DNA of 32,241 nucleotides from Hyphomicrobiales bacterium (GTDB lineage Bacteria > Pseudomonadota > Alphaproteobacteria > Rhizobiales > Rhizobiaceae), in NCBI GenBank assembly GCA_011087605.1, contig JAALLE010000043.1, positions 1 through 32,241 on the forward strand, given 5' to 3'. The notes under the pieces are model-generated. The model worked only from the letters and a program-made list of their open reading frames with translations, had not been told where the DNA came from and did not search any database. Shown one piece after another: positions 4,776 through 32,241 of this stretch (position 1 is the first letter of the stretch; every line of letters begins with the position of its first letter). The translations under genes and the position numbers were made by a program.

Positions 4776-5321
4776 TCAAGTCTGTTTGCAGCGTAACAGC
4801 AGTGCGTTTTCGCGAACCATTACAATGGCTGATCCTGAATCGGAGTTTATCTTGCCAATATTGATGATGACTTTGCCACCACTGCCGCTTATTTCATAGA
4901 CGGGTGCACCACTATTCGACCGGCCGACCCTCAAATTTGGATAGCTTCTGATTTGATTATCCGCTGCGGAATATTGCTGGAGACCATCTGCTCCGCGGTA
5001 ATAGACCAGACTTCCAAACAGCATGTCTTTGGGTGGTGTTTTTGGGTCAGCGTCTTTTACGACCTCGGGATTTTGCGCCGCAAGCGGTGCAAGGCAGGAT
5101 TGCCGTGCAGTCTTCCAGTCATCGCTGGTTGGATCCACATTCCACTTAGGCAATATCAACGCCCAGGGGCCAACTACCTGTTCCAGAAAAATTGCTGATT
5201 GCCGAATGGCGGACTGATCCGTCGCATCCCTGGATTGAGCGACGGCGATTGTGCTCCACACAGTGATGGAAATGCTGAGTGCTGCGAATATCTTAATCAT
5301 TGTCTTGGAAAAGTTCATCAT
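4776..5321 (-). CDS. Secreted hypothetical protein, paralogue of its upstream neighbour
   Basis: I do not recognise the family. The 181-residue product starts with two adjacent ATG codons (5321 and 5318), followed by a clear signal peptide (MIKIFAALSISITVWSTIAVAQS, cut into short pieces here: a Lys-containing n-region, a hydrophobic core and an AVA-Q type cleavage site). The mature part has a pattern shared with the gene just upstream: FLEQVVGPW, a single Cys about 25 residues later, LFGSLVYYRGADGLQ, then QIRSYPNL, and a C-terminal VMVRENALLLRC. The two Cys residues could form a disulfide. It is probably periplasmic. Its start overlaps by 29 bases the frame-corrected end of the upstream gene. 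An origin by tandem duplication is likely. Confidence 0.75.
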   Translation of the reverse strand: MMNFSKTMIKIFAALSISITVWSTIAVAQSRDATDQSAIRQSAIFLEQVVGPWALILPKWNVDPTSDDWKTARQSCLAPLAAQNPEVVKDADPKTPPKDMLFGSLVYYRGADGLQQYSAADNQIRSYPNLRVGRSNSGAPVYEISGSGGKVIINIGKINSDSGSAIVMVRENALLLRCKQT

Positions 5322-5432: not shown

Positions 5433-6035
5433 TCAGGGTCCATACAAGCTGAGTGTTCTGCAGTTTCTGGTGGTCAGGTCAGATATCAGGCGAATTTGCC
5501 CGGAATTGATGTCCAGACGCTGCAGACCTTTTTCGGTTCGATAGTACACCAGATCGCCGAAAAGCGCATCAATGTCGGGTAATTCCTGCGCCGCACTTGT
5601 TTCAAATCTCAGTGGCTTGAGAGTTAATTGCTGTAAACAGCGAACTGCGGCCACCCGGATCATGACATCGGAAAGGCCTTTGTTGACCGATGAAACCCGG
5701 GTCCATGCACCCAACAACTGTGCGTCCAACAATTGCGTAGCATCTTCTTTTGCCTGCTTTTCAGGGTCTTCCTCCGCAGACGCATTATCCAGGTCTGTGG
5801 CCGGCGACTTTTTGCGGCGCAACAGGTATCGCGAATCAACCTTTGACCCTTTTGGCAAAGTCACGCTTTTAGTGGTCGTGCCGAATTCGGTTGTCTGCGA
5901 AAGCGCCGGTGATTGCACCAATGAAGATGCAATCAGTATCGCAATCGATGCGGTACAAGCGCATCGATATAAGGATATTGCCTTAGCTGAATCGACCTTA
6001 AAACTCGACAACTGACCGGATCGACTTGCCTTCAT
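5433..6035 (-). CDS. Secreted hypothetical protein, C terminus frameshifted
   Basis: Not a family I recognise. The visible frame encodes 200 residues with a late signal peptide (hydrophobic stretch about residues 26-44, ending PALSQ), a charged linker with RRKK and acidic residues, and a domain matching the downstream gene (LLDAQLLGAWT; a Cys; LFGDLVYYRTEKGLQ; QIRLISDL). It then ends abruptly in NCRTLSLYGP. One extra A in the minus-strand AAA at 5464-5466 would restore the frame to a stop at 5293-5295. The restored tail contains LVWTLIGENLRLRI and ARFMIEESGFYLRC, which aligns with the end of the paralogue (VMVRENALLLRC). The corrected protein would have about 247 residues. The start at 6035 overlaps the end of frmA by 38 bases; a TTG at 6011 is an alternative. 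Confidence 0.7.
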   Translation of the reverse strand: MKASRSGQLSSFKVDSAKAISLYRCACTASIAILIASSLVQSPALSQTTEFGTTTKSVTLPKGSKVDSRYLLRRKKSPATDLDNASAEEDPEKQAKEDATQLLDAQLLGAWTRVSSVNKGLSDVMIRVAAVRCLQQLTLKPLRFETSAAQELPDIDALFGDLVYYRTEKGLQRLDINSGQIRLISDLTTRNCRTLSLYGP

Positions 6036-11000: not shown

Positions 11001-11280
11001 CTGCATCAAGCAGCGCCTGCCGGTCTGCGACAGGAATTTGATAATAATCTGGATGAATCTCACTGAAGGCGAGGAAACCATGGCGGTTGCCGCCATAGTC
11101 TACAAAAGCCGCCTGCAAGGAGGGTTCTACACGTGTTACTTTTGCCAGATAGATGTTGCCGCGAAGCTGGGTTTTGTGTTCCGATTCGAAGTCGAATTCG
11201 TCAACCCGGTTGCCGCGTACCATGACAACGCGGGTTTCTTCCGGGTGGCCCGCGTCGATGAGCATCTTGTTGTTGGGCAT
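8056..11280 (-). CDS. rne: Ribonuclease E
   Basis: Endoribonuclease that starts mRNA decay and processes rRNA and tRNA precursors; it scaffolds the degradosome. The 1,074-residue protein starts MPNNKMLIDAGHPEETRV and carries an S1 domain (NIYLAKVTRVEPSLQAAFVDYG). A very long acidic and Arg/Lys-rich insertion (about residues 90-450) interrupts that domain before it resumes at HYKIQEVI and QVVKEERGNKGAALTTY. Catalytic aspartates are Asp671 (AIDVNSGRS) and Asp714 (IVIDFID), 43 residues apart as in E. coli, and the zinc-link cysteines are Cys772 and Cys775 (CPTC). Residues 850-1074 are a disordered-looking tail with RRTRR and KPRRKR basic tracts, ending in GGWWQRKFF, like the PNPase-binding GWW end known from Caulobacter. 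Short DNA repeats encode parts of the insertion (for example near 10459-10485). Confidence 0.97.
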   Translation of the reverse strand: MPNNKMLIDAGHPEETRVVMVRGNRVDEFDFESEHKTQLRGNIYLAKVTRVEPSLQAAFVDYGGNRHGFLAFSEIHPDYYQIPVADRQALLDADAEDAREAAAAEALQDQDAEDAEEAKEKPARKRRSRRRGKSDSSAKADQSDASSEDANSGDAGEKSEKTEETSQDAEAVNAADTSDSPEETAPADEKPATKRAKVDVSEESDSGKDSGEDSNEDNGEESDDDASSMSADNDGDDVVSEPAKPKKKTTRAPRKKKSDVVAETAAADDNADDNADGNGNSDATSDQPAQTAEDAAEATSKEPPKRQRRRTSRVKAKPDSEVAADESPVEPDSNADVAKESQEADAKEEKPKRRRTSRKKKTEEDAEAPSVEAADATDTSVVAESVADSSDAAEDETESKPRKSRSRSRSRRRKPKDDANDIDASGDAENGDAVEEIGSEDAMEEVPARRAPRRHYKIQEVIKRRQILLVQVVKEERGNKGAALTTYLSLAGRYSVLMPNTARGGGISRKITNASDRKRLKAVAANLEVPQGMGVILRTAGASRQPEDIQRDFEYLMRLWENVRSLTLESTAPYLVYEEGSLIKRSIRDMYDKDTGEIMVAGDAGYREAKDFMTMLMPNHAKNVKLYRDRIPMFARMGVEAQLDAMLQPEVTLKSGGYIIIDQTEALVAIDVNSGRSTRQHSVEETAVQTNLEAADEVARQLRLRDLAGLIVIDFIDMEDKRNIRSVEKRLKEALKEDRARIQVGRISHFGLMEMSRQRIRASVLESTTQTCPTCEGLGHVRAASSVAISVLRTIEEQLNRNSRNNLIVKVSTETALYVLNNKRDNLGDLESRFNVSISIATDDSLGSTPCAIERGEVSSRRASPEAAVQPDSIELTEEDEEAVVAKSDDDGEASADEAAQAGDTDAEQAPNNEQEKPAGRVKRTRRTRAKKAESDAAETTSDEASEAPADAAAEAQDDAGSEPEKPAKPRRKRVSKKAAAAEQDSADSEITETAAPSVAASDLVDAATDENEPPAKPKRRTTRRKKTESAAAVGGETITAQEPQAAVEMSASADPITADSEPKKGGWWQRKFF

Positions 11281-12055: not shown

Positions 12056-13285
12056 ATGCTAGCTCATACCTCTAAAATATCGAGAGTTTCTCTGGTTTGC
12101 ATGTTTTTGACATCAATCCTTTGGGCTACGAGTTTTGCGGTTTTTGTACCAAACCTTGCGATTGCCTCGGGCAGCAATCAATTGCCAATTGCCTTTGCTG
12201 CCCGAATTGTTGGGGATTCAACGCGCGGACGCCTCATCGTCGATTTTGATCAGGTCATCGACCACGAAGTCCATCTGATGGACGCACCGATGCGAATCGT
12301 TGTCGATATGTCCCAGTCGATTTTCAATCTGGGCAAGGATGCAAAGCTTCTACCGCGTTCGCTGATTTCCAAATTTCGATATGGGTATATCGATGACGGC
12401 CGGTCGAGAATTATTCTGGAGCTGTCTGAAGCCGCTTCGATTGTTGGTCACCGATTAAAGACTGTCGATTCAGGCAAGCGTTTTCGGCTGTTTATCGATT
12501 TTATGGCGACCTCTGAGGAGAATTTCGCCAAGCTGATCTTAAAGAAAAAGGAAGTCGAGCCCAAAAATGTGGTTCGCAATCGTGCCAAGACCCGCCGACG
12601 TTTTACCATCGTTCTGGACCCGGGGCACGGAGGCATTGACGGCGGCGCGAGCGGCGTCAAGAAAACCATCGAAAAATCAGTCACGCTCAATTTCGCAAAT
12701 CGGTTGAAGGCCTTGCTCTCCAAAAACAAGAATTTTGACGTGATACTCACCCGCGATGATGATGTATTTCTGGGACTTGCAGATCGTTTGACAATTGCCC
12801 GGGAGGCCAAGGCCGACCTGTTCCTGTCTATTCACGCCGACTCGCTTGCTCAAAAACATATACGAGGTGCCACCGTCTATAGTCTGTCGGAGGAGGGGAC
12901 TGACGACATATCCAGGCTGTTGGCCCGAAAGCAAAACAGAACAGATCTGATTGCCGGGTTGGAATTGCCCGAGTCCAAACCCGGTGTGTCTGACATTCTC
13001 ATCGATATGACACGGCGAGAGACCGAAGTTTTTTCAAAGCAATTCGCCAGTGTTCTCGTTGGACGGCTGGAAAATGATATTAAATTGATTCGCAATCCAC
13101 ACCGGGCGGCTGATTTTTATGTGCTTAAGGCGCCCGAAGTTCCCTCAATCTTGTTGGAACTGGGTTATTTGTCGAATATTGAGGATGAACAGTTGATGCG
13201 TTCAAAAGAATGGCAAACTCTGGCCGTGCAACGCACTTACGATGCAATTGTAGAGTTTTTTGAGATACGGTTGGCTCGAAAATGA
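12056..13285 (+). CDS. amiC: Periplasmic N-acetylmuramoyl-L-alanine amidase with AMIN domain
   Basis: Cuts the amide bond between muramic acid and the stem peptide, mainly to separate daughter cells. The 409-residue protein has a signal peptide (hydrophobic core about residues 12-36, ending AIASG), an AMIN localisation domain (about 45-150; RLIVDFDQVIDHEV, MRIVVDMSQS), a basic linker and an Amidase_3 catalytic domain (about 183-405). Zinc ligands are His191 in LDPGHGG, Glu206 and His260 in LSIHAD; the catalytic Glu368 lies in ILLELGYLSN. The insert typical of autoinhibited, EnvC-type-activated amidases seems to lie around residues 275-330. The ATG at 12056 has no clear ribosome site, and a second ATG at residue 16 is possible. 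It is followed by PBP1A, as in many related genomes. Confidence 0.93.
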   Translation: MLAHTSKISRVSLVCMFLTSILWATSFAVFVPNLAIASGSNQLPIAFAARIVGDSTRGRLIVDFDQVIDHEVHLMDAPMRIVVDMSQSIFNLGKDAKLLPRSLISKFRYGYIDDGRSRIILELSEAASIVGHRLKTVDSGKRFRLFIDFMATSEENFAKLILKKKEVEPKNVVRNRAKTRRRFTIVLDPGHGGIDGGASGVKKTIEKSVTLNFANRLKALLSKNKNFDVILTRDDDVFLGLADRLTIAREAKADLFLSIHADSLAQKHIRGATVYSLSEEGTDDISRLLARKQNRTDLIAGLELPESKPGVSDILIDMTRRETEVFSKQFASVLVGRLENDIKLIRNPHRAADFYVLKAPEVPSILLELGYLSNIEDEQLMRSKEWQTLAVQRTYDAIVEFFEIRLARK

Positions 13286-13442
13286 CGTTTACCTTTGGTA
13301 ATGTTTGTGCAACAGGCTTTGTCACAATGCCATTGCCCGACGGCCACGCCTTACAATCACCCAATTTAAGCGTGATTTCAGTATTGGGCGAAGTTACATC
13401 TGCGAAGATGACATTCGAACGAATTGCAGGAAATCCCACACC

Positions 13443-15917
13443 ATGTTCTTGAAACTTTTCGGCTATTTTTTTGGAATTGGGACCGCAGCGCTGATTGCGC
13501 TTGTGACCGGAGTTTATCTGTATTCAGCTGAACTCGAAAAAGAACTGCCCGATTATGAGGTTCTCAATCAATATGAGCCTCCGGTGACGACTCGTATCCA
13601 TGCTTCTGACGGAGCATTGATTGCCGAATATGCCCGTGAACGACGCCTGTATCTGCCTATCCAGGCAATTCCGGCACTGATGCAACAGGCGTTCATATCT
13701 GCCGAAGACAAAAACTTCCGCAAACATGGCGGTATTGACTATCTGGCGCTCGGCAATGCCGCATTCACCTATTTTGAGGCCAAGATCAGCGGTCGCAATG
13801 CGCGGGCGAGGGGGGCTTCGACAATCACCCAGCAGGTCGCCAAGAACTTTCTGCTGACCAGCGACCGTACCGCGGATCGCAAGATCAAAGAAGCGATGCT
13901 GGCATTCCGCATTGAGGATGCCTATTCGAAGGACAAAATTCTGGAGCTCTATCTCAATGAGATTTTTCTCGGATTGGGATCTTATGGCGTTGCCGGTGCC
14001 TCGCTGGCCTATTTCGACAAGTCGGTTGGAGATCTGGACGTTCACGAAGTCGCCTATCTGGCAGCCCTGCCGAAAGCGCCGAACAATTATCACCCTTTCC
14101 GTCATACCGAAAAAGCGCTGGAACGCCGAAACTGGGTGATCGGCCGGATGAACATTAACGGATACATCACCGCCGAAGAGGCTGAGGAAGCCAAAGCAAA
14201 ACCACTCAGTGTCAATCCGCGAAAGCAAGGCTCTTATCTGGAAGCTACAGAATATTTTTCCGAAGAAGTGCGCCGCCAGATTGTCGAACGCTATGGCCAG
14301 AACGCGCTCTATGAAGGTGGATTGTCAATCCGAACTACCGTCGACCCGAAGATGCAGATGCTGGGTCGGGTTGCCCTGCGAGCCGGTTTGATCAGCTATG
14401 ATCGTAAAAAAGGTTATCACGGACCTTATGCGCAAATTGAACTGGGCGAAGACTGGGCCGACGAGTTGGTGAAGCTGGATGAACTGGATGATGTTGCCGA
14501 ATGGCGTCAGGCCGTTGTTTTGGAAGTTGGTGATAGTTTTGCCCGTGTGGGATTGCGTCCCGGACGCCTTGTCAGCCGGGCGTTATCTGATGATCGCGAT
14601 GAAGCGACAATCTATCTGGAAGATGCACCTTGGGCCAACCGGCTGACGACTAAGGTCAAAGGGAAGAATCGCAAAAGCACCAAGATCACCCGGATGGACG
14701 AACTGATGCAGCCCGGAGACGTTATCCATGTGTCCTCGCTGGATGGACGATTTGTCCTGGAACAGGTGCCGGAAGTTTCGGGTGCTTTGGTGGCGATGAA
14801 CCCGCATACGGGCCGCGTATTGTCGATGATGGGTGGATTCTCGTTCAAACAATCGCAGTTTAATCGTGCAACGCAAGCCAAACGCCAGCCTGGCTCGGCA
14901 TTTAAACCATTTGTATATGCCGCTGCACTCGACAACGGATACACGCCTTCGTCGGTGGTTCTGGACGGACCATTCAAGAAAGATCAGGGCGGTAATCTGG
15001 GTATCTGGGAGCCGAAAAACTATGGTGGCAAATATGCTGGCCCCTCGACGCTTCGACTGGGCATTGAAAAGTCCAGAAACCTGATGACTGTGCGATTGGC
15101 CAACGATATGGGCATGCCGCTGATTGCCGAATACGCGAAGCGTTTTGGCATCTATGACGGGCAGATACGTGGTCTGGCATCTTCGCTTGGTTCGCGAGAA
15201 ACTTCGGTTTTGCGTATGGTGTCGGCCTATTCGGTTCTTGCCAATGGTGGCAAGCGCATTGTTCCGTCACTGATCGACCGAATTCAGGACCGTTACGGTC
15301 GCACGATCTTCAAACACGAACAACGCGTGTGCGATGACTGCCGTGCCGCAAGCTGGGAAGGTCAGGAGGAACCTGATCTGATCGACAATCGCGATCAGGT
15401 GCTGGACCCGATGACTGCCTATCAAATCACCTCCATGATGGAAGGGGTCGTTCAGCGCGGAACGGCTCGGGTCGTAGCCGGTCTGGGTGTCCCGATTGCC
15501 GGCAAGACCGGCACGACAAACGAAGAAAAGGACGCCTGGTTTGTCGGTTATTCGCCTGACCTGGTAGTCGGTGTGTTCGTTGGCTATGACACTCCCGAAC
15601 CGATGGGCAAGGGCAGTACTGGGGGTGGTTTGGCCGCTCCTATCTTCGTCGAGTTCATGCAAACGGCATTGACAGAAAGTGTCGCCATCGATTTTCGCGT
15701 GCCGGAGGGGATCAAGCTCTACCCGATCAACGCCAAAACCGGCCTGTTGGCTCAGGCAGGGTCTGGAGGCGTGATTATGGAAGCCTTCAAGCCGGGCACC
15801 CAACCGCCAAACAGCTATTCCATTATCGGATTCGAATCCGATATGCTGGATGGTGTTCTGTCTACGTCTAAAGAAGCTACACGCGCCGTGATTACGGGCA
15901 CCGGTGGACTTTATTGA
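13443..15917 (+). CDS. mrcA: Penicillin-binding protein 1A (bifunctional transglycosylase/transpeptidase)
   Basis: Polymerises lipid II into glycan strands and cross-links the peptides in the periplasm. The 824-residue protein has one N-terminal membrane anchor (about residues 5-27). Its GT51 domain has catalytic Glu88 in SAEDKNFRKHGG, the motif GASTITQQVAKN, RKIKEAMLA and ILELYLNEIFLG. An OB-like insert follows (about 320-460), then the transpeptidase with Ser485 in SAFK, SRN as the SxN motif, and Lys688 in GKTGTT. I chose the ATG at 13443, preceded by AGGAA; the frame is open further upstream, but that part is not protein-like. The gene lies 157 bases after the amidase and is probably cotranscribed with it. 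This is the class A enzyme usual in alphaproteobacteria, also called ponA. Confidence 0.96.
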   Translation: MFLKLFGYFFGIGTAALIALVTGVYLYSAELEKELPDYEVLNQYEPPVTTRIHASDGALIAEYARERRLYLPIQAIPALMQQAFISAEDKNFRKHGGIDYLALGNAAFTYFEAKISGRNARARGASTITQQVAKNFLLTSDRTADRKIKEAMLAFRIEDAYSKDKILELYLNEIFLGLGSYGVAGASLAYFDKSVGDLDVHEVAYLAALPKAPNNYHPFRHTEKALERRNWVIGRMNINGYITAEEAEEAKAKPLSVNPRKQGSYLEATEYFSEEVRRQIVERYGQNALYEGGLSIRTTVDPKMQMLGRVALRAGLISYDRKKGYHGPYAQIELGEDWADELVKLDELDDVAEWRQAVVLEVGDSFARVGLRPGRLVSRALSDDRDEATIYLEDAPWANRLTTKVKGKNRKSTKITRMDELMQPGDVIHVSSLDGRFVLEQVPEVSGALVAMNPHTGRVLSMMGGFSFKQSQFNRATQAKRQPGSAFKPFVYAAALDNGYTPSSVVLDGPFKKDQGGNLGIWEPKNYGGKYAGPSTLRLGIEKSRNLMTVRLANDMGMPLIAEYAKRFGIYDGQIRGLASSLGSRETSVLRMVSAYSVLANGGKRIVPSLIDRIQDRYGRTIFKHEQRVCDDCRAASWEGQEEPDLIDNRDQVLDPMTAYQITSMMEGVVQRGTARVVAGLGVPIAGKTGTTNEEKDAWFVGYSPDLVVGVFVGYDTPEPMGKGSTGGGLAAPIFVEFMQTALTESVAIDFRVPEGIKLYPINAKTGLLAQAGSGGVIMEAFKPGTQPPNSYSIIGFESDMLDGVLSTSKEATRAVITGTGGLY

Positions 15918-21877: not shown

Positions 21878-23059
21878 TTGTCTGCCGACCTAAATCACCC
21901 TCCGAAAACGCACGGTTTGAATGGAACCGGGAACTCAGCCGCATTTCGGCTTGAGAGGGCGGCAGATGCTTGGACAATGAATTGTTCTGGAGACTGGACC
22001 ATAGGGTCCATCAACGCTGTGGAACAGGAACTGGGCAAACTGGATCTGAATGGCTGTCGCAATCTGAAAGTCGATAGTACTGCTGTGGCCGGGTTTGACA
22101 CGGCTGGGGCCTGGATGATTGAACGACTTCGTCTGGCAGCCAACAAAAACTCAGTTGAATTCCATCACTTTGATGCGGATCAGCGTCGGGCGCGTTTGGT
22201 GCAGGTAATTGCGCTGGACCAACAGGGATCCCAGCCAGAAAATAGCCTGCCCAGAAATCCGATTTCGCGCATGCTGGAGCGGCTAGGACAAATAACTCTG
22301 GAAGCGTTGCGTGATATAATGAACGCCTTCTACCTGGTCGGGGCATCGATCCGGGGCCCGCAAATGAAAGCTGGCCGCCGGGGCGGAATACGACTGACCT
22401 CAATTGTGCATCATCTGGATCAAATGGGATTGCGATCGATCCCGGTAATCGGGGTGATGTCGTTTTTGATTGGCGCTATCATCGCCCAACAGGGCGCCTA
22501 TCAGTTGCGGTTTTATGGTGAGGAATTGCTGACCGTCAATCTGGTGGGTATTTTGCATTTTCGCGAAATTGGTGTGCTTTTGACCGCTGTGATGGTAGCC
22601 GGACGAACAGGCAGTGCCATCACCGCCGAAATCGGCACGATGAAAATGCGCGAGGAGATCGATGCCCTGACTGTGATCGGCCTCAACGCCGTTGGGGTGC
22701 TGATTTTTCCAAGACTGGTGGCCTTGATTATCGCACTGCCGATCCTGGTGCTGTTGAGCGATCTCGCGGGAATCCTGGGTGCAATCGTGGTGTGTGATAT
22801 TTACGTTGGAATTACACCTGAGCAGTTTTTGACCACGTTACAGGGGGGGGTGGAAACCAAACACCTGTTTGTCGGATTTATCAAAGCCCCGGTGATGGCG
22901 GTTATAATCGGATTGTCGGCTGCCGTCGAAGGATTGAAGGTTGAAGGCAGTGCTGAATCCCTGGGCCGCAGAACGACGTCAGCGGTAGTCAGGGCGATAT
23001 TTGCAGTCATCGTTGTTGATGGCATGTTTGCCATGTTCTTTGCGGCGATCGGATATTGA
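21878..23059 (+). CDS. mlaE: MlaE-type ABC transporter permease with N-terminal STAS domain
   Basis: Inner-membrane permease of a lipid transport system that maintains outer-membrane lipid asymmetry. The 393-residue protein fuses a STAS domain (about residues 28-115; NLKVDSTAVAGFDTAGAW), which is the separate MlaB subunit in E. coli, to the MlaE permease (about 165-393). The permease has SFLIGAIIAQQGAYQL, LTAVMVAGRTGSAITAEIGTM, the coupling segment MREEIDALTVIGLN, and FIKAPVMAVIIG. The start is a TTG at 21878; later ATG codons would cut into the STAS domain. The stop is followed after one base by the ATPase gene, so translation of the two is coupled. Confidence 0.92.
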   Translation: MSADLNHPPKTHGLNGTGNSAAFRLERAADAWTMNCSGDWTIGSINAVEQELGKLDLNGCRNLKVDSTAVAGFDTAGAWMIERLRLAANKNSVEFHHFDADQRRARLVQVIALDQQGSQPENSLPRNPISRMLERLGQITLEALRDIMNAFYLVGASIRGPQMKAGRRGGIRLTSIVHHLDQMGLRSIPVIGVMSFLIGAIIAQQGAYQLRFYGEELLTVNLVGILHFREIGVLLTAVMVAGRTGSAITAEIGTMKMREEIDALTVIGLNAVGVLIFPRLVALIIALPILVLLSDLAGILGAIVVCDIYVGITPEQFLTTLQGGVETKHLFVGFIKAPVMAVIIGLSAAVEGLKVEGSAESLGRRTTSAVVRAIFAVIVVDGMFAMFFAAIGY

Positions 23060-23060
23060 T

Positions 23061-23897
23061 ATGACAACATCATCGACCGCGACACCGACAACCGTTCAGC
23101 CTTCCACCGAGTCTGGTCAGCAAATCAATCAAGATGCATCGCGCGACGTAATCCTGCGCATCAGGGATGTTGAAGTAGCGTTTGGTACGCACAAAGTGCT
23201 CAAGGGTGTAAATCTTGACGTGTATCGAGGTGAGATATTGGGATTTGTCGGCGGGTCGGGTTCTGGCAAATCTGTGCTGATGCGCTCAGTCCTGAGTCTG
23301 ATCAAGAAAGATGCTGGAAAAATAGAATTGTTTGGACTTGATTACGATTCCACCGGTGGGGCAGACCGACTTTCAATCGACTGCAGAATGGGTGTTTTGT
23401 TTCAACATGGCGCGTTGTTTTCCTCGCTCACGGTGAAAGAGAACATTCAGGTACCGATGCGGGAATATTTCGATCTCAGCCAAAGCCTGATGGATGAACT
23501 GGCGCGCGTAAAAATTGATCTGGTAGGTTTGGGACCCGAGGCGGCCGATAAATATCCTTCTGAATTGTCCGGCGGAATGATCAAACGAGCCAGCCTGGCA
23601 CGCGCATTGGCGCTTGATCCGCAACTGGTTTTTCTGGATGAGCCAACATCCGGACTGGACCCAATCGGGGCTGCCGCATTTGACGATCTGATTGCATCGC
23701 TGCGTGACACTTTGGGGCTAACGGTCTATATGGTCACCCACGATCTGGATAGCTTGCATGCCATTTGTGATCGCATTGCGGTGCTGCGTGATGGTGTGGT
23801 GCTGACGACCGGTACACTGGCTGAAATGACTGCCGTTGATGACCCGTGGACCAAAGCCTATTTCACCGGAAAACGCGCTCGAAATGTTGGGACCTAA
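23061..23897 (+). CDS. mlaF: MlaF-type ABC transporter ATP-binding protein
   Basis: Cytoplasmic ATPase that drives the MlaE permease. The 278-residue protein has an unstructured Thr/Ser-rich start (about residues 1-25). Walker A is GGSGSGKSVLM, the Q-loop lies in FQHGALFSSLTV, the signature is SELSGGMIKR, Walker B is LVFLDEPTSGLDP, and the switch His is in VTHDL. The ALFSSLTVKEN and SGGM forms are typical of the MlaF/Ttg2A subgroup. The ATG at 23061 follows the mlaE stop by a single base; the frame is open upstream but only inside mlaE. Confidence 0.94.
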   Translation: MTTSSTATPTTVQPSTESGQQINQDASRDVILRIRDVEVAFGTHKVLKGVNLDVYRGEILGFVGGSGSGKSVLMRSVLSLIKKDAGKIELFGLDYDSTGGADRLSIDCRMGVLFQHGALFSSLTVKENIQVPMREYFDLSQSLMDELARVKIDLVGLGPEAADKYPSELSGGMIKRASLARALALDPQLVFLDEPTSGLDPIGAAAFDDLIASLRDTLGLTVYMVTHDLDSLHAICDRIAVLRDGVVLTTGTLAEMTAVDDPWTKAYFTGKRARNVGT

Positions 23898-23953
23898 TTA
23901 TGCCTGACACCGAGCGCTGCATGTTAATTGAAGACAACACAGTGAATTGATTT

Positions 23954-25570
23954 ATGGAAACAAGAGCAAATTACATCGCTGTCGGATTTTTTACCCTGGT
24001 CGCAATCGTCACGGTTTTCGCGGTCATCTATTGGTTTGGTCGCTACGGGGAAGGTGATAATCTGGTGCCCATCGATATCCGGATCAGAGGCTCTGTCAGT
24101 GGTTTGGGACCTGCCAGTCTGGTTCAGTTTAACGGTATCGATGTTGGTCGTGTCAGCGGGCTTTCACTTGATAGCGCAGACCCACGCTATGTTATTATTC
24201 ACTCGAAGATCAATCAGGCGACACCGGTGCGGTCAGACACAAGGGCGTCGATCGGAATTCGAGGCCTGTCTGGTGGTGCATTCATACAATTGGAAGGTGG
24301 CAGCCCCACGGCTCCAGCATTGCTGGGACCGGGCGTGGACAACAGCGGCGAAGTTCCTGTCATTTCAGGTGATCCGTCTGCGCTGACTGACCTGTTGACG
24401 CGGGTCAACAGCATCGCAGCACGAACCGAAGGCTTGATGGTGACGCTGGAAAGCTTCATTGCCGCAAATAGTGACACGGTAACGCGGACCTTGAACAATG
24501 CGGAGACATTCTCGCAGGCTCTGGCTCAAAACAGCGAAGGTGTCGGGCAATTTATGGAGAGTGCTGGGGACGTTGCAGTGTCGCTCCAGAAAATGTCTGA
24601 GAAACTTGATGGCAGTTTGAAACGGGCCGAAGAAATTCTGGCGGCGGTTGAGCCGCAAGCTATCAGGAATACGGTTGAAAATGTCGAGACGTTTACTGCC
24701 TCTTTGGCAGAGCAGCGCGACCAGATTGCAGCGGTTGTTGATACGATCAACAATACTGCCGATCAGCTCAACCAGTTTACCGGTGATCTTAACGGAACGC
24801 TTGAGAAAGTGGATGGCGTCGTTTCAGCGGTTGACCGCGAAATGGTGATAGCCACAGTGTCCAATATCAACAAGTCGGCAGAACGGGCCGAACAATTGTT
24901 ATCGTCTTTCGAAGGCGATCGCCTCAACAGCACGATCACGGATGTTCAGGCTGTGGCTTCGCAGGCCCGCAAGATTCTTGACAATGTCGATGAAACTCAA
25001 GTGCGGATGCTGATTGGTGATCTGAGCAAGGCCAGCAGTGATGTTTCCAAGCTGTTGGATGCTATTGATGCAGCAAAAATCAACGAGGCTGTGGAAAACA
25101 TCTCGACCGCTGCAGCAGGTGCTCAGACCATTGTCAGTGATGTAGCCAAAGTAACGACGCCATTGGGCGCGCGCGCTCAGGATATAGACCAGATTGTAAG
25201 TGATGCCTCTGAGTTGGCCAGCCGGCTAAATGAATCCTCCAGGCGTGTTGATGACATTCTCACTCAGGTCAGCGATTTGGTGGGTTCTGGCGTAACGGAC
25301 GGTCTGATGGCTGACGTTAAATCGACCCTGGAGCAATTCCGCCTGACTGCGGTGAATTTTGACCGGCAGGTGTCTTCTATCGCTGGGAATGTGAACGCTT
25401 TTACAAAGCGTGGCCTGGCGGACACACAGGGGTTAATTCGTGACGCCCGCCAGTCGCTTAACCGGTTCGACCGTGTTATGAGGAATCTACAAAGCAATCC
25501 TTCATCACTGATAACCGGTGCTGGAGGGAGCAGAGTAAGGGAGTCGTCGGGAACGCGGGTTCGCCGCTAA
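23954..25570 (+). CDS. mlaD: MCE-family substrate-binding protein (MlaD-like) with long helical tail
   Basis: Lipid-binding component anchored in the inner membrane, working with MlaE and MlaF. The 538-residue protein has one N-terminal membrane segment (about residues 9-27) and one MCE domain (about 38-118; RIRGSVSGLGPASLVQFNGI, VGRVSGLSL, GIRGLSGGAFIQL). It continues with more than 380 residues of predicted helix rich in Asn, Asp, Ser and regularly spaced Ile/Val/Leu, and ends in SGTRVRR. E. coli MlaD is only about 180 residues, so the extension probably forms a helical stalk or channel reaching across the periplasm, as in other MCE proteins; this is inference. It follows mlaF by 56 bases. 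Confidence 0.92.
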   Translation: METRANYIAVGFFTLVAIVTVFAVIYWFGRYGEGDNLVPIDIRIRGSVSGLGPASLVQFNGIDVGRVSGLSLDSADPRYVIIHSKINQATPVRSDTRASIGIRGLSGGAFIQLEGGSPTAPALLGPGVDNSGEVPVISGDPSALTDLLTRVNSIAARTEGLMVTLESFIAANSDTVTRTLNNAETFSQALAQNSEGVGQFMESAGDVAVSLQKMSEKLDGSLKRAEEILAAVEPQAIRNTVENVETFTASLAEQRDQIAAVVDTINNTADQLNQFTGDLNGTLEKVDGVVSAVDREMVIATVSNINKSAERAEQLLSSFEGDRLNSTITDVQAVASQARKILDNVDETQVRMLIGDLSKASSDVSKLLDAIDAAKINEAVENISTAAAGAQTIVSDVAKVTTPLGARAQDIDQIVSDASELASRLNESSRRVDDILTQVSDLVGSGVTDGLMADVKSTLEQFRLTAVNFDRQVSSIAGNVNAFTKRGLADTQGLIRDARQSLNRFDRVMRNLQSNPSSLITGAGGSRVRESSGTRVRR

Positions 25571-25611
25571 CGGGATTTTCCATGTGTAAACTGGCTACAG
25601 GGTAAGTATTG

Positions 25612-26274
25612 ATGCGGTTAGTCGGTTCTGAAAACCGAATTTTTCCAGTGGTTGCTGCTGAGAGATTCCACCTGACGATTCATCGTCGTGGGTGGCAGCG
25701 TGGGCTTGTGGTCGCGGCGTCATTAATGGCTTTGTCATCTTGTGCATTGGTGAAGCCCGGTGAGGCTCCGCGCGAAACATTCGACATTTCCGCGCCGACC
25801 CAATTCAGTGGGGTTCGTGGCGGCAGCAGGGCCCAAATACTGGTCAAAGTTCCCACGGCGCTGAAGTCGCTCGATAGCGACCGCATCGTTGTCAAACCAA
25901 CGCCGACCATAGTCACCTATCTGGCCGGGGCGCAATGGACCGATACGGTTCCACGTCTTGTACAGGCCAAACTTGTTGAGTCGTTTGAGAACTCAGCAGC
26001 AACGCGTGCAACGGCCAAGCCAGGCGACGGGCTGGTGATTGATTATCAGCTTGTGAGCGATGTCCGTCGATTTGAGGTCGCCGATGGTGTGGCAATCATT
26101 GAACTGTCTATCAAGCTGCTTACAGACCGGACAGGTCGGGTGCGCGAAACACGGATTTTCCGATCAACAGCACGCTCCATAAGTGATAAACCTGAGGATC
26201 TGGTCGATGCATTCGACTCAGCCTTTGATGAGCTTGCGCGAGACATTGTGACCTGGATTGTGCGACGCACCTAG
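25612..26274 (+). CDS. ABC-type transport auxiliary lipoprotein (PqiC/LptE-like fold family)
   Basis: A 220-residue lipoprotein with basic residues before a hydrophobic core and a lipobox MALSSC, so it should be lipidated at that Cys (about residue 45). The mature part contains RAQILVKVPTALKSLDSDRIVV, TYLAGAQWTDTVPRLVQAKLVESFE and VIDYQLVSDVRRFEV, the signature of the auxiliary lipoprotein found beside MCE transporters (PqiC/YmbA type). It probably joins the MCE protein to the outer membrane in place of MlaC or MlaA. AGGGTAAG precedes the ATG at 25612, and a TTG immediately before it is a less likely start. It ends the operon. Confidence 0.87.
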   Translation: MRLVGSENRIFPVVAAERFHLTIHRRGWQRGLVVAASLMALSSCALVKPGEAPRETFDISAPTQFSGVRGGSRAQILVKVPTALKSLDSDRIVVKPTPTIVTYLAGAQWTDTVPRLVQAKLVESFENSAATRATAKPGDGLVIDYQLVSDVRRFEVADGVAIIELSIKLLTDRTGRVRETRIFRSTARSISDKPEDLVDAFDSAFDELARDIVTWIVRRT

Positions 26275-26350: not shown

Positions 26351-29300
26351 TCAGCCGAAACGGTTGGCCGCATGTGCGAGCATTGTGTAGACTTTACCGG
26401 TATCTGAAGTCAGATAGGTTTGGGTCATAATATTGTCGCTGTCGTTTTTTGATACATCGGCAATCAATCGTTCAAAATCAGCGACGTATTGGTCGACGGA
26501 AACTTTGAAGCGGTCATCAGTGCGATATTTTTCATGGATTTCGTCGAAGGTTTGCTGTCCCTGGGTCGTATACAGGCCTCGATGGAACAAATTGCGCTCA
26601 CCTTGCTGATAACGCTCCCAAAGTTCAGCAGCCACACTGTGATCGATTGACTTTGCAATGTCGCTGGAGAGTGAGCCCAGGCTTTCTTCAGCTGAGCGGG
26701 TGCGTGGAACCGTGTCGGCTGAATCATCACGGGATGCACGGCGAAGCAGATCGCTGACCCAGCCGTCTCCTCCTGGCAGAGGAGGATTGCTGCGCGCTCC
26801 AGCGTCAAAACTCATTGCGCCACGCAATGGAGACCTTTCAAGAACCGGAGCTGCCGTTGTAGCCGGAGAATCTACCTGTGGCGCCGCCGTCGCCGTTGTT
26901 GGTGGGGCAGGCGTGGGCGATGGGGTGGGTGCGACCTGTGGTTCGGCGACTGCTGGAGCCGGTATAGGTGCGGTCTGGGCGGTTGGTTGTACGGGAACCG
27001 GTGGACGCGGAGCCGGCCTATTTGTCGTTGGCGGTGCGGGCTGAACTGCAGCGGGCGAAGACAAAGCCGCCGGTGTCGTAATAGCCGCAGCGGGCGCGAC
27101 ATTGCTCTGTGCGGCATCCTGCAGACGTGAAGATTTGTTGACGATCTCGGTCAAGTCCTTCAGCGCCTTGATCTGATCGGAGACAACCCGACGCATGGCC
27201 GAAGTGCTTTCTTTGGTTTCATCCGGCAAATCAATGACCGACTTCTTGAGCTCGTTTCTTGTGGTGGCGAGATCCTGCCTCAAAGTATGTGCCGTATTGC
27301 GCATTTCCTGAGTGGCAGCGGCAAAGCGTTCTGTCGCTTCGGTTGCGACCGAGCCAACGCTTTCCGCCAAACCCTGTGTCAGGTTCTGGGCCCGACCTTC
27401 TGCATTGGTAACGCTGTCGGCCATCATATTGGCAAATCGACCCATCAATTCTTCCAGATCGACGGATTTTGCCACCAGACCGTTGGTCAACGCTTCAATG
27501 GCATCGCGTCTGTCGTCAAGACTGACCGCGATATTGCTCTGGGTTTCATCGAGTAGTCTGGAAATTGTATTCAGAGAAGAACTCTGTTCTTCAAACCGAC
27601 TGGAAATTTCTGCAATCTCGACCAACACAGTCGATGACACGTCCTTCAGACCGAGATAGTTACTCTCAATCATGTTGCTGGATGTGTTGAGGTCTTCTGA
27701 GGCCTGACCGGCAACCTGCTGGAAATCCTTCGTGCGCGCGCTAAGTGAATTTTGCGCGGAGGACAGATTTTCGTCTGCAAGAGATATCAGCGAAGCCAGA
27801 TCCGTGTTGCTTTCACCGAGCCGATCAAGCAGCCCGCCAATCTCTCGGCTCAGCCGCTCATTGGTTTCACCAAGAGCTTCAATGGATTCATTGGATTTGC
27901 CGGTGAGAGTGTTGACCATTGCGGCGCTCTCCGAGCGGATCCGTTCGCCAACATGCTCTGCAATGTCTGCAATCTGCTTGGTAACGGATTCGCCACTTGC
28001 AACAATGCTATCGGTCTGATTGTTGACCGCGCTGGACAATTGTTCAGAAGAACTGGTTAGGCGATTGACCAGTTCGGAAGTGCGATCTTCCAGTGACAGA
28101 TACCGCGACGCAAGGTCTTCAGCAGCGGCGTTGGCGGACGTTTCCATACGTTGGTTAGAGGCGACCAGCATGCCTTCCAGTTTCCCGGCAGCTTCATCGG
28201 CAGAAGCCTTAAGCTGGCGGGAACTGGAGGCCAGCTTGCCTTCCAGGTCTGTGGTGATGTCCTGGGTTGATTTGGAAAGGGCTTCGGCAACCGCCTGACC
28301 GTCTGCTTCAAATTTGCGCAACATCGGCATCGTGTCGCGGGTCAGCAATTGACTCAATTCACGCGAACGCGCCGCCAGTGATGTGTTGAGTTCAGCGGTG
28401 CGCTCGCTGAGGGTAGTGGTCACCTGATCAGCGCGGGCAGCCAGCGCGGCGTCTGCTGCAGTCAATTGCGCATCGATCTTGCCTTCCATGGAAGCCATCG
28501 ACGTGGTGATGGCACTTTCAGCCTTCATCGCTTCAGATACCAGCGTCGAAGATATGTTGCTCAAGTGCGAGTCCAGTGCTGTGGAGAGTTCTCCGGCGCG
28601 TTCTTCAAGAACTTCGTTGACCTTGCTGGCACCTGCATCCAGCGATGCGTTTATGGCATCAACACGCGCGCCCAGGGTGAGGTCAACCACGCCAATCTGC
28701 TCGTCGAAGGCGGATTTCATGCCGGCTGTTCGACTGGCCAACATTTCGTCCGCCGCAGCAGTCCCTCTGGCAATTGTCTCATTGATACTGGCCAGACGTT
28801 CTGTGACGCGGGATTCTATTTCCTCGGCGCGAGCGGCCATCGACAGGCTGAGCTCCAGAGCCTTGTTGTCCAGTGTTTCGGTGGTTTCGGTAATCGATTC
28901 AGTTATCGCCCGGGCACGGTTGGCGAGTTGACTGTCAGCACTTTCGATCTGTGCTGCAAACTTGCCGTGAGCTTCGCTTACGTGTCCTAACAGGTTGCTA
29001 CCAGAAGAACTTAGCTGCTCCGTCAGAGTGTTTCCTGAGGTGACAACTTGATTCACCAAGTTGCTGCTGGACGCATCAATCTGCTCTGTAAACCTGCTGC
29101 TGGACGCATCGACCTGTTCCGCCAATTTGTTGCTGGATGCATCGACCTGTTCTGCCAACTTGCTGCTGGATGTATCAACTTGTTCTGCCAAACGGTTGCT
29201 GGATGCTGCTACATGTTCGGCCAGTCTGGTGCCTGACGCATCGACGTGCTGAGCCAACCTGCTGCCCGATGCGTCAACCTGCTGGGCAAGTTTACTGGTT

Positions 29301-31942
29301 GAGGCATCAACCTGTTCAGCAACCTTGCTGTTTAGTTCGTCAATCTGGCCACTCAGTGTATTGCCAAGGTTGCTGGCCCGATTTTGCAAGCCTTCGGCGG
29401 ATTGTAAAAGTTGACTGTCTATATGGGCCAGTTTTTCGGTGAGTTGTTCACCGGTACTTTCCATTTGGGCTTTGGCTTTTTGTTCTGCCCGCGCAATATG
29501 CGAAGCCAGTGTCAGCCCATAATCATCAGCTTTTTCATACAAGGTCGCGTGGCTGGTTTGTAATTGCTCGTTAACCTGCGTCGCCTGTTCGGCCAATCGC
29601 GCTCCAACCTGATCCACCTGTTCGGTGACTTGTTGTCCGATCTCGTCGACCTTGCTGGCGAAAGAGAAACCAAGTTCCAGTGCCTTATTGTCGAGAAGTT
29701 CGCTGGTTTCTTTGATCTGGCCATGAACGCTCATAGCGCGGGCAGAAAGCTGACTGTCCGCAGATGAAATTAGCTGATCGACCATTTGGTTTATTTCGTC
29801 GACTTTGCCGGACAGATTTAAGCCCAACTCCAGTGAACTGTTATCAAGAAGCTCGCTTGTCTCTTTGATCTGGTCCTGGACGTTGAGGGCGCGTGCAGCC
29901 AATTGACCATCGGCCGAGCTGATCATTTGATCCACCAGATGTTTTACATCATCGAGTTTGGTGGAGAATGTTTGATCGAGTTCCTTGGTTCCCTGGTCAA
30001 ACAGTTTGTTAGTGTCTTTTATCTGATCCTGAACCGTGGTTGCTCTTATTTTCAACTGACTATCGGCAGCCGAGACCTGCTGATCGACGAGTTGATTGAT
30101 TTCGTCAACTTTTGCGGCCAGCGACAGACCGAGCTCCATCGCTTTGCTATCCAATGTTTCCTTGGTGTCTTCAAGCTGACTGGTCAGGTCGGTTTTGATA
30201 ATTGCCTGACCTTCAGAAAAGGCAGAGGCAATTTCCCGGGAGCGTTCAATCAACGTGTCGTTGATCTGCTGAGTTCGCGCTTCCAGAGCGGTTTCGATCT
30301 TGTTGACGCTGGTATCTAAAGACTTGTTGCGTTGACCCAGCTGTTTGGTCATCGATTCAATACGTCCGGAAAGTACCTGACCGAAACTGGTGATTTTCTC
30401 TTCCAGAGCCTGATCGACAGTCTGCGTTCCTTCGGCAAGCACTGCTGCCAAATCACCAGTACGGGAGCCAAGTTTTTCAACCAGAGTGTTGCCGCTTGAA
30501 TTCAGATTCTCGTCGATCGATGAGAATTGCTCTCCGAGCTTGGTTTGCAGTTCGGTCGACAGAAAGTTAATTCGCTCGGCAAGTTCCCCAGTCTTGATCT
30601 CCAGCTGGTTGCTTGTTGAGGTTCCGGTAGTAGCGATGGATTCCACCAGCGCTCCAGCACTTGCATCGATACGGTCTGCGATCGCGTTGCCGCGATCTGT
30701 CAGAGTTTCAGAAAGCGATTCTGAAGCAAAAGTCAGTGAGGCTGTGACGTCCTCCACTGCACTGGTGGCAGATTGGCCAGTGGCCTGAAGCTTATCGATC
30801 AAGCCAGCGCCCGCATTATCAATCTGTGTGCCAATGTCCTGGGTTCTGTCTGACAGAGCCGAATTAAAGCTGTCACCGGCGACAGTCAGCATGGCTCGCA
30901 TGTCATCAAAGACCGTGCCGGTTTTGTCTCTGGTGGATTCAATCTGATCGACGATATTGCCGCCAACATTCTCTATTTGTTGACCTATTTCCTGTCCTTT
31001 AAGGACAATTTGATCCAGCAGGGCCGAACTGGCTTCATCCAAAGAGACCTTCATATCATCATTGGTGCCACCTAAAGCAGCGCTAAATTGCTGCTGGGCA
31101 AGGGCCACGTTTTCGCTGATCTGCTGGGCCGATAAAGTCAAATCTTCCTGAAGGGTTTCACTGGCACCAGATATGGATGAACGAACCCTCTCGGTGTGAT
31201 TGACAATGGCCTCGCGTTCGTTTGCCAGTTCTTCGACCAGACTGCGCATCCGTAGTTCATTGTCTGAATAGGAATTCTCCAGGGAAGAAACCTCAGTGTG
31301 AACCAGGCCTTCCAATTCACTGGCGCGGGCCATGGCGCGTTCAATGCCATCGGTCAGCGCGTTAACTTCGACCCGAATGGCCTGGCCAACACTGCGGACA
31401 GAACTTACCGCATCATTTTCCGGTTCAATCAGGCGATAGGCGGCCTCTGTCATTGATCGGGCGGCCAGCTTCAGTTCCTGGGCGCGCCTTAGCATGAAGG
31501 CGTACCCCCAGATAAACAGGATCGGCAAAGCAACGCTGGCGACAAAGTAGATAAGACCCGGATTTGCTCCCAGCTTGGTCCAGGCAGTTAGGTCGATCAG
31601 TGTGTCGCCCAATACGGTGTAACCGGCCCAAAGGGCAATTACGATCCAACCCATGCTGGCAAATAGGGCAGTCCATAAAATGGCGTTGGAGGGACGACGA
31701 GACAGGGCTGCAGCAAATCTGGCGCTGCCTGATCCGCGTTCATCATTAGCGGCGGGTGAACTGGGCGCGACAGCGGTCCGAGTTTCGGCGGAATCATATT
31801 CTGGCTGCTGTGGTTCGGATGCATAGGGATCTTCTGCCGCATCGGCATTGGCTTCGTGGCCAAAGTCGATTTTCAAAGCCTCTTCGACGGCATTTAGTGC
31901 GTCACTGGACTCTTTGGCTGATTTTTTAACCCGTTTTGCCAT
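26351..31942 (-). CDS. Giant two-TM coiled-coil protein, candidate polar growth ring protein (GPR/RgsE-like)
   Basis: A 1,863-residue protein. Residues 1-85 are charged and cytoplasmic-looking, with KRVKK at the start. Two membrane segments lie at about 87-110 and 128-150. From 155 to about 1600 it is one long predicted helical, apolipoprotein-like region rich in Ser, Gln, Glu, Asp and Leu, including 51-residue repeats (611-814) and 11-residue repeats (873-1004). A Pro/Ala/Thr linker follows (about 1610-1710), then a compact C-terminal domain (about 1735-1863) with VAAELWERYQQGERNLF, GQQTFDEI and YLTSDTGKVYTMLAHA. This plan matches rhizobial GPR (Agrobacterium) and RgsE (Sinorhizobium), which form a ring at the growth pole; I recall that family by architecture and cannot confirm it by alignment. 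AAGGCG precedes the ATG; the 39-residue upstream extension is rejected. Confidence 0.72.
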   Translation of the reverse strand: MAKRVKKSAKESSDALNAVEEALKIDFGHEANADAAEDPYASEPQQPEYDSAETRTAVAPSSPAANDERGSGSARFAAALSRRPSNAILWTALFASMGWIVIALWAGYTVLGDTLIDLTAWTKLGANPGLIYFVASVALPILFIWGYAFMLRRAQELKLAARSMTEAAYRLIEPENDAVSSVRSVGQAIRVEVNALTDGIERAMARASELEGLVHTEVSSLENSYSDNELRMRSLVEELANEREAIVNHTERVRSSISGASETLQEDLTLSAQQISENVALAQQQFSAALGGTNDDMKVSLDEASSALLDQIVLKGQEIGQQIENVGGNIVDQIESTRDKTGTVFDDMRAMLTVAGDSFNSALSDRTQDIGTQIDNAGAGLIDKLQATGQSATSAVEDVTASLTFASESLSETLTDRGNAIADRIDASAGALVESIATTGTSTSNQLEIKTGELAERINFLSTELQTKLGEQFSSIDENLNSSGNTLVEKLGSRTGDLAAVLAEGTQTVDQALEEKITSFGQVLSGRIESMTKQLGQRNKSLDTSVNKIETALEARTQQINDTLIERSREIASAFSEGQAIIKTDLTSQLEDTKETLDSKAMELGLSLAAKVDEINQLVDQQVSAADSQLKIRATTVQDQIKDTNKLFDQGTKELDQTFSTKLDDVKHLVDQMISSADGQLAARALNVQDQIKETSELLDNSSLELGLNLSGKVDEINQMVDQLISSADSQLSARAMSVHGQIKETSELLDNKALELGFSFASKVDEIGQQVTEQVDQVGARLAEQATQVNEQLQTSHATLYEKADDYGLTLASHIARAEQKAKAQMESTGEQLTEKLAHIDSQLLQSAEGLQNRASNLGNTLSGQIDELNSKVAEQVDASTSKLAQQVDASGSRLAQHVDASGTRLAEHVAASSNRLAEQVDTSSSKLAEQVDASSNKLAEQVDASSSRFTEQIDASSSNLVNQVVTSGNTLTEQLSSSGSNLLGHVSEAHGKFAAQIESADSQLANRARAITESITETTETLDNKALELSLSMAARAEEIESRVTERLASINETIARGTAAADEMLASRTAGMKSAFDEQIGVVDLTLGARVDAINASLDAGASKVNEVLEERAGELSTALDSHLSNISSTLVSEAMKAESAITTSMASMEGKIDAQLTAADAALAARADQVTTTLSERTAELNTSLAARSRELSQLLTRDTMPMLRKFEADGQAVAEALSKSTQDITTDLEGKLASSSRQLKASADEAAGKLEGMLVASNQRMETSANAAAEDLASRYLSLEDRTSELVNRLTSSSEQLSSAVNNQTDSIVASGESVTKQIADIAEHVGERIRSESAAMVNTLTGKSNESIEALGETNERLSREIGGLLDRLGESNTDLASLISLADENLSSAQNSLSARTKDFQQVAGQASEDLNTSSNMIESNYLGLKDVSSTVLVEIAEISSRFEEQSSSLNTISRLLDETQSNIAVSLDDRRDAIEALTNGLVAKSVDLEELMGRFANMMADSVTNAEGRAQNLTQGLAESVGSVATEATERFAAATQEMRNTAHTLRQDLATTRNELKKSVIDLPDETKESTSAMRRVVSDQIKALKDLTEIVNKSSRLQDAAQSNVAPAAAITTPAALSSPAAVQPAPPTTNRPAPRPPVPVQPTAQTAPIPAPAVAEPQVAPTPSPTPAPPTTATAAPQVDSPATTAAPVLERSPLRGAMSFDAGARSNPPLPGGDGWVSDLLRRASRDDSADTVPRTRSAEESLGSLSSDIAKSIDHSVAAELWERYQQGERNLFHRGLYTTQGQQTFDEIHEKYRTDDRFKVSVDQYVADFERLIADVSKNDSDNIMTQTYLTSDTGKVYTMLAHAANRFG
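28931..29326 (-). repeat. Twelve tandem 11-residue (33-bp) repeats in the giant gene
   Basis: Encodes residues 873-1004 as twelve consecutive units on the pattern KLAEQVDASSS, such as KVAEQVDASTS, RLAQHVDASGT, KLAEQVDASSN and RFTEQIDASSS, decaying to TLTEQLSSSGS and KFAAQIESADS. Hydrophobic residues sit at unit positions 2 and 6, giving one stripe per three turns. That suits a right-handed or nearly straight helical bundle (hendecad), also the period of apolipoprotein lipid-binding helices. Confidence 0.85.
29501..30112 (-). repeat. Four 51-residue (153-bp) repeats in the giant gene
   Basis: Units begin at KVDEINQLVDQ (30112), KLDDVKHLVDQ (29959), KVDEINQMVDQ (29806) and the degenerate KVDEIGQQVTE (29653). 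Each of the first three contains SADxQL, a V-x-x-QIK-[DE]-T segment and LELG or a variant. The three clear copies span residues 611-763. They indicate recent internal duplication within the coiled-coil region. Confidence 0.8.
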
Positions 31943-32145
31943 TTTTCTACGCCTTACATTCGGGAACTTGCGACCGCCCGTCGCGGCATCCCATATCCCA
32001 CAATTTTGTTCCGTTTCCGGAATAGTATACGGGATCATGGGATAAATGTTGAAAAACATTCCCGCGTAAGTTCCCGCCGATTGGTCATAATACTAGGGTC
32101 TGATCCATATTGGTACTGTTTGGCGACAGAGCGGCGATGAAAAAG

Positions 32146-32159
32146 TTAATTTTGGTTAA
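32146..32159. promoter_or_regulatory. TTAA-N6-TTAA palindrome upstream of the giant gene
   Basis: TTAATTTTGGTTAA, within GTTAATTTTGGTTAAC, lies about 205 bases before the giant gene start. It resembles a CtrA-type site (TTAA-N7-TTAA), but the spacer is one base short. The rest of the 299-base region upstream of this gene, to the window end, shows no coding frame I trust. Confidence 0.3.
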
Positions 32160-32189
32160 CGTTTCCACCGATTGTTTGTTTGATTGCCT

Positions 32190-32207
32190 GTAACTACCCA
32201 GCTACCC
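32190..32207 (-). repeat. 18-bp upstream element, copy 2
   Basis: On the minus strand this reads GGGTAGCTGGGTAGTTAC, identical to the copy at 31-48 except for one base. It lies about 248 bases before the giant gene start and points the same way relative to its gene as copy 1 does to crcB. Confidence 0.5.
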
Positions 32208-32241
32208 CAACCTGATGCTTTTATAGACGGCCCATCAGACG

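Follow-up and report, generated by a model that had tools for sequence, protein, structure and literature searches.

A probable GPR/RgsE orthologue in a Hyphomicrobiales bacterium, and the distribution of its C-terminal domain and divergent Hpt neighbour among alphaproteobacteria

Introduction

The closest described relatives of the gene studied here are the growth-pole ring protein GPR of Agrobacterium tumefaciens (Atu1348, 2,115 aa) and RgsE of Sinorhizobium meliloti. In the passages of the GPR report on which we draw, the protein has two transmembrane domains, an apolipoprotein-like helix of ~1,700 aa, a Pro-rich stretch at residues 1890–2000 and a C-terminus needed for function; it is arranged as six foci in a 200-nm ring close to the tip, its depletion leads to loss of shape, and a slight excess gives rise to extra poles (PMC8262873). 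GPR derivatives lacking the last 10, 221 or 332 residues complement incompletely or not at all, the one lacking 221 residues being the worst, while that lacking 332 residues fails on shape, forms paired foci and keeps more function (PMC8262873). According to the corresponding passages on RgsE (PMC7327166), this protein of 2,089 aa is a homologue of Agrobacterium GPR (42%), localises to no pole but the growing one and has RgsA, RgsS and TolQ as interaction partners; it is not essential in S. meliloti, being needed for normal rate and shape and not for growth as such. Distant RgsE homologues are reported there in Emcibacterales and Rhodospirillales, and TipN is said, in the cited part of PMC8546619, to resemble GPR.

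Here, we describe a gene in a window of 32,241 nucleotides (the whole stretch of DNA analysed; contig JAALLE010000043.1 of assembly GCA_011087605.1), the product of which very probably is a GPR/RgsE orthologue that works as GPR and RgsE do, with its bulk in the cytoplasm and a ring behind the growing pole. The protein itself is ordinary, a GPR/RgsE orthologue in one further species of the family, and the gene alone thus extends a described family by one species; of greater interest are the class-wide occurrence of its C-terminal domain (CTD) and the pairing with a gene for a single-domain Hpt protein.

Results and Discussion

Gene and protein plan

Inspection of the open reading frames placed the 1,863-aa gene on the minus strand, with an ATG at 31942 and the stop codon at 26351–26353. 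The first-pass annotation, made from the sequence alone, had located the gene at 26351–31942 and had given no strand; the coordinates stand, and a plus-strand gene was rejected as the same interval read forward is full of stops. A longer in-frame ATG is present at 32059; the start at 31942 is preferred because it fits the N-termini of the relatives (MAKK.../MATKK...). The contig stops 299 bases upstream of this start codon. The features of the window are collected in Table 1.

Table 1. Position, strand and basis of assignment of the features of the window
Feature	Position	Strand	Basis
AMIN/Amidase_3 amidase and bifunctional PBP1a-like gene	12056..15917	+	Pfam
MlaE, ABC ATPase (MlaF-like) and MlaD genes; start of ATPase uncertain	21878..25570	+	Pfam, synteny
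ABC-transport auxiliary lipoprotein (ABC_trans_aux), frequent convergent neighbour	25609..26274	+	Pfam, synteny
GPR/RgsE-family gene, 1,863 aa	26351..31942, stop codon included	-	ORF and alignment to relatives
Conserved CTD, ~115 residues, contains LTSDTGKVYTMLAHA	26354..26698	-	Profile matches; no Pfam/NCBIfam family
Pro-rich linker, 28 Pro in 100 residues (1624–1723)	26774..27073	-	Composition
Apolipoprotein-like amphipathic helix, period 3.64 residues (about 11/3)	27113..31375	-	PF01442, periodicity, composition
Tandem array of 33-base (11-residue) units inside helix	29056..29330	-	Tandem Repeats Finder
Transmembrane helix 2, residues 124–142	31517..31573	-	Hydropathy
Transmembrane helix 1, residues 87–105	31628..31684	-	Hydropathy
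Region 5' of gene, ended by contig	31943..32241	.	Divergent Hpt gene starting no more than ~1 kb upstream in many relatives

Hydropathy analysis predicts two membrane helices near the N-terminus, as had been proposed, and the Pro-rich linker that had been described is likewise borne out by composition. The long middle part had been called about 1,450 residues of apolipoprotein-like helix in a giant coiled-coil protein; the helix holds, at about 1,420–1,425 residues, while the term coiled coil does not if a heptad was meant. With only 2 Pro and neither Cys nor Trp in about 1,420 residues, this part shows a hydrophobic period of 3.64 residues, the peak reaching 5.1 times the mean as against at most 1.54 in 20 shuffles. 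Power at the heptad value of 3.5 is little (0.74), and a true heptad coiled coil was therefore rejected, the period being of the 11-residue type; the name apolipoprotein-like 11-residue helix suits it better than that of a heptad coiled coil.

The same plan recurs among relatives. Within the first 500 residues, exactly two membrane helices are predicted in 47 of 58 proteins of the window's family (f1), with one in 7, three in 3 and none in 1, and exactly two are predicted in 32 of the 40 proteins examined outside f1. The helix period lies at 3.61–3.66 in all 58 family proteins and at 3.65–3.66 in three others of the order; 34 proteins of other families fall at 3.56–3.63 (3 of the 40 being too short for the measurement), a range that overlaps with that of the order.

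Relationship to RgsE and GPR

A comparison of the C-terminus with GPR/RgsE had been proposed as a check. Using the last 150 residues, which lie outside the low-complexity helix, as a query, six records of a plasmid collection were matched, the best being a 2,089-aa protein of S. meliloti. The record is labelled pSymB and the protein, which bears the domain at its end, is annotated as 'kinesin'; it was taken for RgsE (SMc00190) because of its exact published length. Alignment of the window protein to RgsE gave 26.5% identity over 1,631 aa (E 3e-97) and, in addition to this, 51% over 183 columns at the C-terminus (E 2e-52); global identity is 33.5%. By region, identity amounts to 38% in the N-terminus, 48% in the membrane region, 27% in the helix, 51% of 72 aligned residues in the linker and 64% in the CTD. 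The early impression that the CTD is far more constrained than the helix is thereby confirmed (64% vs 27%), with the qualification that the last ~70 residues of the helix nevertheless reach 48%. Since global identity is low and the helix is of low complexity, the case for orthology rests on the CTD, the membrane region and the neighbourhood.

RgsE of S. meliloti and the window protein have in common two N-terminal membrane helices, the helical period (3.65 in RgsE), a Pro-rich linker and the CTD, and the rgsE locus likewise has Mla-type genes downstream in the same orientation, as well as a divergent Hpt neighbour; they differ in length (2,089 vs 1,863 aa) and in the helix, of which only ~27% is identical. 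Together with the published plan of GPR (PMC8262873), the alignment supports the earlier suggestion of a plausible homologue on the GPR/RgsE plan. The link to A. tumefaciens GPR depends on the RgsE–GPR homology of 42% as given in the cited part of PMC7327166, and a comparison of an Aminobacter sequence with named genomes shows no Agrobacterium among the best 80 of 565 matches. GPR is accordingly likened to the window protein by its published description; it is longer, and the ring has been demonstrated for GPR only.

A CTD search of the window's own genome (97.9% complete) returned one match, the gene itself. Among 61 family genomes, with the window's own counted, 60 carry the CTD, each at one locus; G056 is without a match. 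The family frames extend from 1,236 to 3,006 residues (57 loci not cut by a contig end). The host, a relative of rhizobia, shares its family with Aminobacter and, as the near-identical CTDs indicate, with Sinorhizobium.

Downstream neighbourhood

Genes for MlaD and MlaE were found in 36 and the lipoprotein gene in 37 of 59 other family loci (up to 20 kb fetched). In named genomes, 70 of the loci drawn from the best 80 of the 565 matches extend over more than 5 kb downstream; Mla-type genes occur in 60 of these and the lipoprotein gene in 61. In S. meliloti the Mla-type genes lie ~15 kb from rgsE; this locus differs in that an IS110 transposase and cytochrome genes, among others, stand in between. 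The amidase and PBP1a-like neighbours were absent from the sequence fetched for all 59 other family loci, and consequently no weight is placed on them; they appear at 1 of the 70 named loci (8 kb fetched, loci from the best 80 of 565).

This neighbourhood bears on a literal reading of the apolipoprotein likeness, according to which the protein would carry or bind lipids for the adjacent Mla-type lipid-transport operon. The whole window protein scores 206 bits against Pfam Apolipoprotein (PF01442, cut-off 90), and both the 11-residue period and the frequency of Mla-type neighbours agree with such a role. However, every single stretch of the protein remains under the cut-off and sub-threshold matches also occur in 7 of 14 control genomes, so that the Apolipoprotein match is not very specific; additionally, the match to apolipoprotein A-IV in the PDB is weak (E 5e-4, 21 bits), and in S. 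meliloti the Mla-type genes are as far as ~15 kb from rgsE. We consider a lipid-carrying role very improbable and retain the reading of a GPR/RgsE orthologue.

Distribution of the C-terminal domain and of MreB

No Pfam or NCBIfam model exceeds its cut-off in the CTD, and 41 CTDs compared with Pfam gave chance-level results only (best E 0.016). The structure prediction suggested for this domain yielded a moderate and mostly helical AlphaFold model (mean pLDDT 65.6), but a fold search with this model against solved structures produced no match (best E 0.83). The domain had also been said to have no known function, which is correct as to a biochemical activity; it is, however, to be set against the impaired complementation by C-terminal deletions of GPR (PMC8262873). 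From the cited portion of that work, it follows that the ring can do without the CTD and that the intervening region matters too, as GPR lacking 332 residues still forms paired foci; moreover, the worst phenotype is not accounted for by the missing CTD alone, since this derivative keeps more function than that lacking 221 residues.

A CTD profile detected 149 of 387 genomes of the class (E <= 0.001), in frames of 330 to 2,752 residues. These fall into 59 of 154 family codes by our own count, the weakest (f94 and f21) being near the threshold; two of the 149 genomes (G254 and G389) have two loci each, and one frame (G159) contains a stop. In a sample of 299 genomes of the phylum, all 69 CTD matches lie within the window's class. 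By these profile matches, the CTD search reaches further than the published RgsE homologues, a putative homologue in one Sphingomonas record being an example. Separately, family f21 (L170, L283 and L284) was observed to have minimal frames of 330–361 aa with two membrane helices and a weak CTD match, and little helix between them.

The specificity of the CTD is relevant to the notion that the similarity is one of composition, according to which the window protein would be some other long and amphipathic protein of the membrane, unrelated by descent and, for example, ZorA-like. The NCBIfam ZorA model does give a match (E 6e-8, 31.5 bits); this is far under the curated cut-off of 190 bits and has its best stretch in the helix, and on these grounds a ZorA-like anti-phage protein was rejected. 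The CTD, by contrast, lies outside the helix and matches specifically, with all matches in the phylum sample confined to the class, and an unrelated origin is hardly conceivable.

MreB_Mbl was not found in the window's genome (97.9% complete) at E <= 1e-30, nor at this threshold in the other five genomes of the order in the class sample, while MreB is present in 363 of the 387 class genomes. DUF2497, which we take to be PopZ, is present in the window's genome. MreB occurs in 138 of the 149 CTD-positive genomes (a hand tally, in which the MreB-negative state of G441 was deduced from its absence from the list). As most CTD-bearing genomes thus have MreB, the plan is not tied to MreB loss, and we infer that it is older.

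The same count raises the alternative that the window protein is a homologue working outside polar growth, as a general envelope or polarity scaffold of the kind presumed in MreB-bearing alphaproteobacteria. The commonness of the CTD in MreB genomes favours this alternative, as does the different role that the RgsE paper, in the part cited, suggests for distant homologues (PMC7327166). Against it stand the apparent lack of MreB in this genome and in its relatives of the order, the membership of a family with RgsE-bearing relatives and the long helix of about 11/3 period as in the order. On balance a general scaffold is improbable here, and a part in polar growth, as for GPR and RgsE, is the reading that we follow.

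The divergent Hpt gene

In S. meliloti and in the Sphingomonas record, a gene for a single-domain Hpt protein stands head to head with the GPR/RgsE-family gene. The Hpt gene was found upstream and divergent in 17 of 20 family flanks fetched (none in L184, L185 and L191), and other families have it at 16 of 40 loci, always divergent (f2, f3, f5, f6, f11, f13, f49, f105 and f107); the remaining 24 of these 40 non-f1 loci, our own choice from the 149 matches, have no single-domain Hpt beside the gene. The Hpt model was built partly from loci of the first of these scans, in which it was then counted; part of the loci of other families, the named loci, the 12 further loci and the 1.15 Mb of sequence below are others. 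In named genomes (the best 80 of the 565 matches), 13 loci were dropped because the sequence preceding the frame was shorter than 1.5 kb, although 5 of them show an Hpt gene; in the other 67 it is divergent within 2 kb in 54, further off in 2 and absent in 11. Ten of these 11 are loci of Brucella/Ochrobactrum type (L249–L252, L256, L261, L262, L266, L271 and L272), which keep the gpr gene and have no Hpt in the 3.2–3.6 kb fetched upstream. Twelve further loci gave a divergent Hpt in 5, one on the same strand (L288) and none in 6, adding f161 outside the order; overall, a divergent Hpt was found in eight family codes outside the order. Across 1.15 Mb of gene-body and downstream sequence, only 4 Hpt frames were detected, all at the gene's own upstream edge.

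In the window's genome, the contig ends before such a gene could be seen. The S. meliloti Hpt has a single match in this genome, close to the facing end of a different contig (C11:24071-24376 of 24,653). This Hpt scores above the Pfam Hpt cut-off (26.7 vs 24.6) and retains the phospho-acceptor His; ferredoxin and DUF922 genes come after it, in the order found upstream of rgsE in S. meliloti. The facing contig ends show no exact overlap; we infer that hpt and gpr are adjacent in this genome as well.

Taken together, the gene arrangement suggests that polar growth is linked to a phosphorelay. Such a role cannot hold throughout, because the Hpt gene was not found upstream in the Brucella/Ochrobactrum-type loci and in 24 of the 40 loci of other families, and because the His is lost in Sphingomonas-type loci. 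No paper linking Hpt to GPR, RgsE, the growth pole ring or TipN was found in the open-licence literature, a body that leaves most subscription journals outside.

Several observations were made on these flanks in their own right. An Hpt without the phospho-acceptor His (a pseudo-Hpt) is encoded in L100, L139, L141 and L142, which are Sphingomonas-type loci. In family f69, the gene is immediately preceded by a large frame of the same orientation that includes an Hpt domain (L160:1378-4044 and L167:1353-4067); according to Pfam, that of L160 is a hybrid histidine kinase with Hpt. Methylmalonyl-CoA mutase accounts for 5 of 10 large upstream or nearby frames scanned (L149, L154, L155, L162 and L163) and for none of 8 neighbours scanned at other loci.

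TipN-like proteins and a possible common family

Two proteins of family f55 (830 and 934 aa) have two membrane helices and a diverged CTD, matched by profile A2 at E 1e-13 and 1e-11; for one of them, hhalign assigned the diverged CTD a probability of 92.8. From their size and neighbours (LacI, KduI, SDR and PEPcase in L281), we take these proteins for TipN, the name used in Caulobacter. They differ from the window protein in being much shorter and in having no Hpt within the ~2.2–2.5 kb fetched upstream. Three other f55 genomes (G112, G293 and G360) gave no CTD match, and a search of the plasmid collection with a TipN-like protein found nothing.

It is conceivable, though we hold it to be the less probable case, that GPR/RgsE belongs with the TipN-like and the shorter proteins to one ancient alphaproteobacterial family of pole organisers that is defined by the CTD and was ancestrally paired with a single-domain Hpt protein; when the Rhizobiales lost MreB, this older polarity scaffold would have been lengthened with a helix of 11-residue period to build the growth-pole ring, with Hpt as a phosphorelay input from the cell cycle. 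The odds of such a common family are lowered by the overlap of the period ranges and by the three of five f55 genomes without a CTD match. The wider pattern makes two questions testable, namely how unipolar growth arose after MreB loss and what controls the growth-pole ring, and it offers well-defined starting points in the CTD and in the divergently encoded Hpt protein as a candidate partner.

Proposed mechanism

By analogy with GPR and RgsE, the window protein would be anchored in the inner membrane by its two helices, with the bulk of the chain in the cytoplasm, and would form a ring just behind the growing pole that holds the envelope-building machinery in cells without MreB. The contrast in constraint indicates that the helix is tolerant in length and sequence while the CTD and the membrane region are not; the helix may thus be a length-variable, membrane-compatible spacer and the body of the ring, and the CTD may serve to bind partners or to control activity. 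Less firmly, the divergent single-domain Hpt might tie expression or activity of the gene to a phosphorelay. A divergently encoded regulator is plausible in that a slight excess of GPR makes extra poles.

Other features of the window and of the sample

A weak telomere-resolvase-like match (PF16684, E 2e-4, under the cut-off) was noted in L098 (G019:C7:562540-563055), in one of 19 family genomes searched. In the window, an EamA-type transporter is split into two overlapping frames of 124 and 195 aa (2489–3447, plus strand), of which only the second matches Pfam EamA, indicating a frameshift, a pseudogene or an assembly error. Two small secreted-looking proteins are encoded at 4776–5321 and 5433–6035 (minus strand) and have no Pfam match at E 0.001; to us they are reminiscent of IalB-like proteins. 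The polar-growth protein RgsG is described, in the cited part of PMC7327166, as containing an IalB-like domain. Finally, RNase E (8056–11280, minus strand) carries long acidic and Arg-rich low-complexity stretches as well as tandem repeats.
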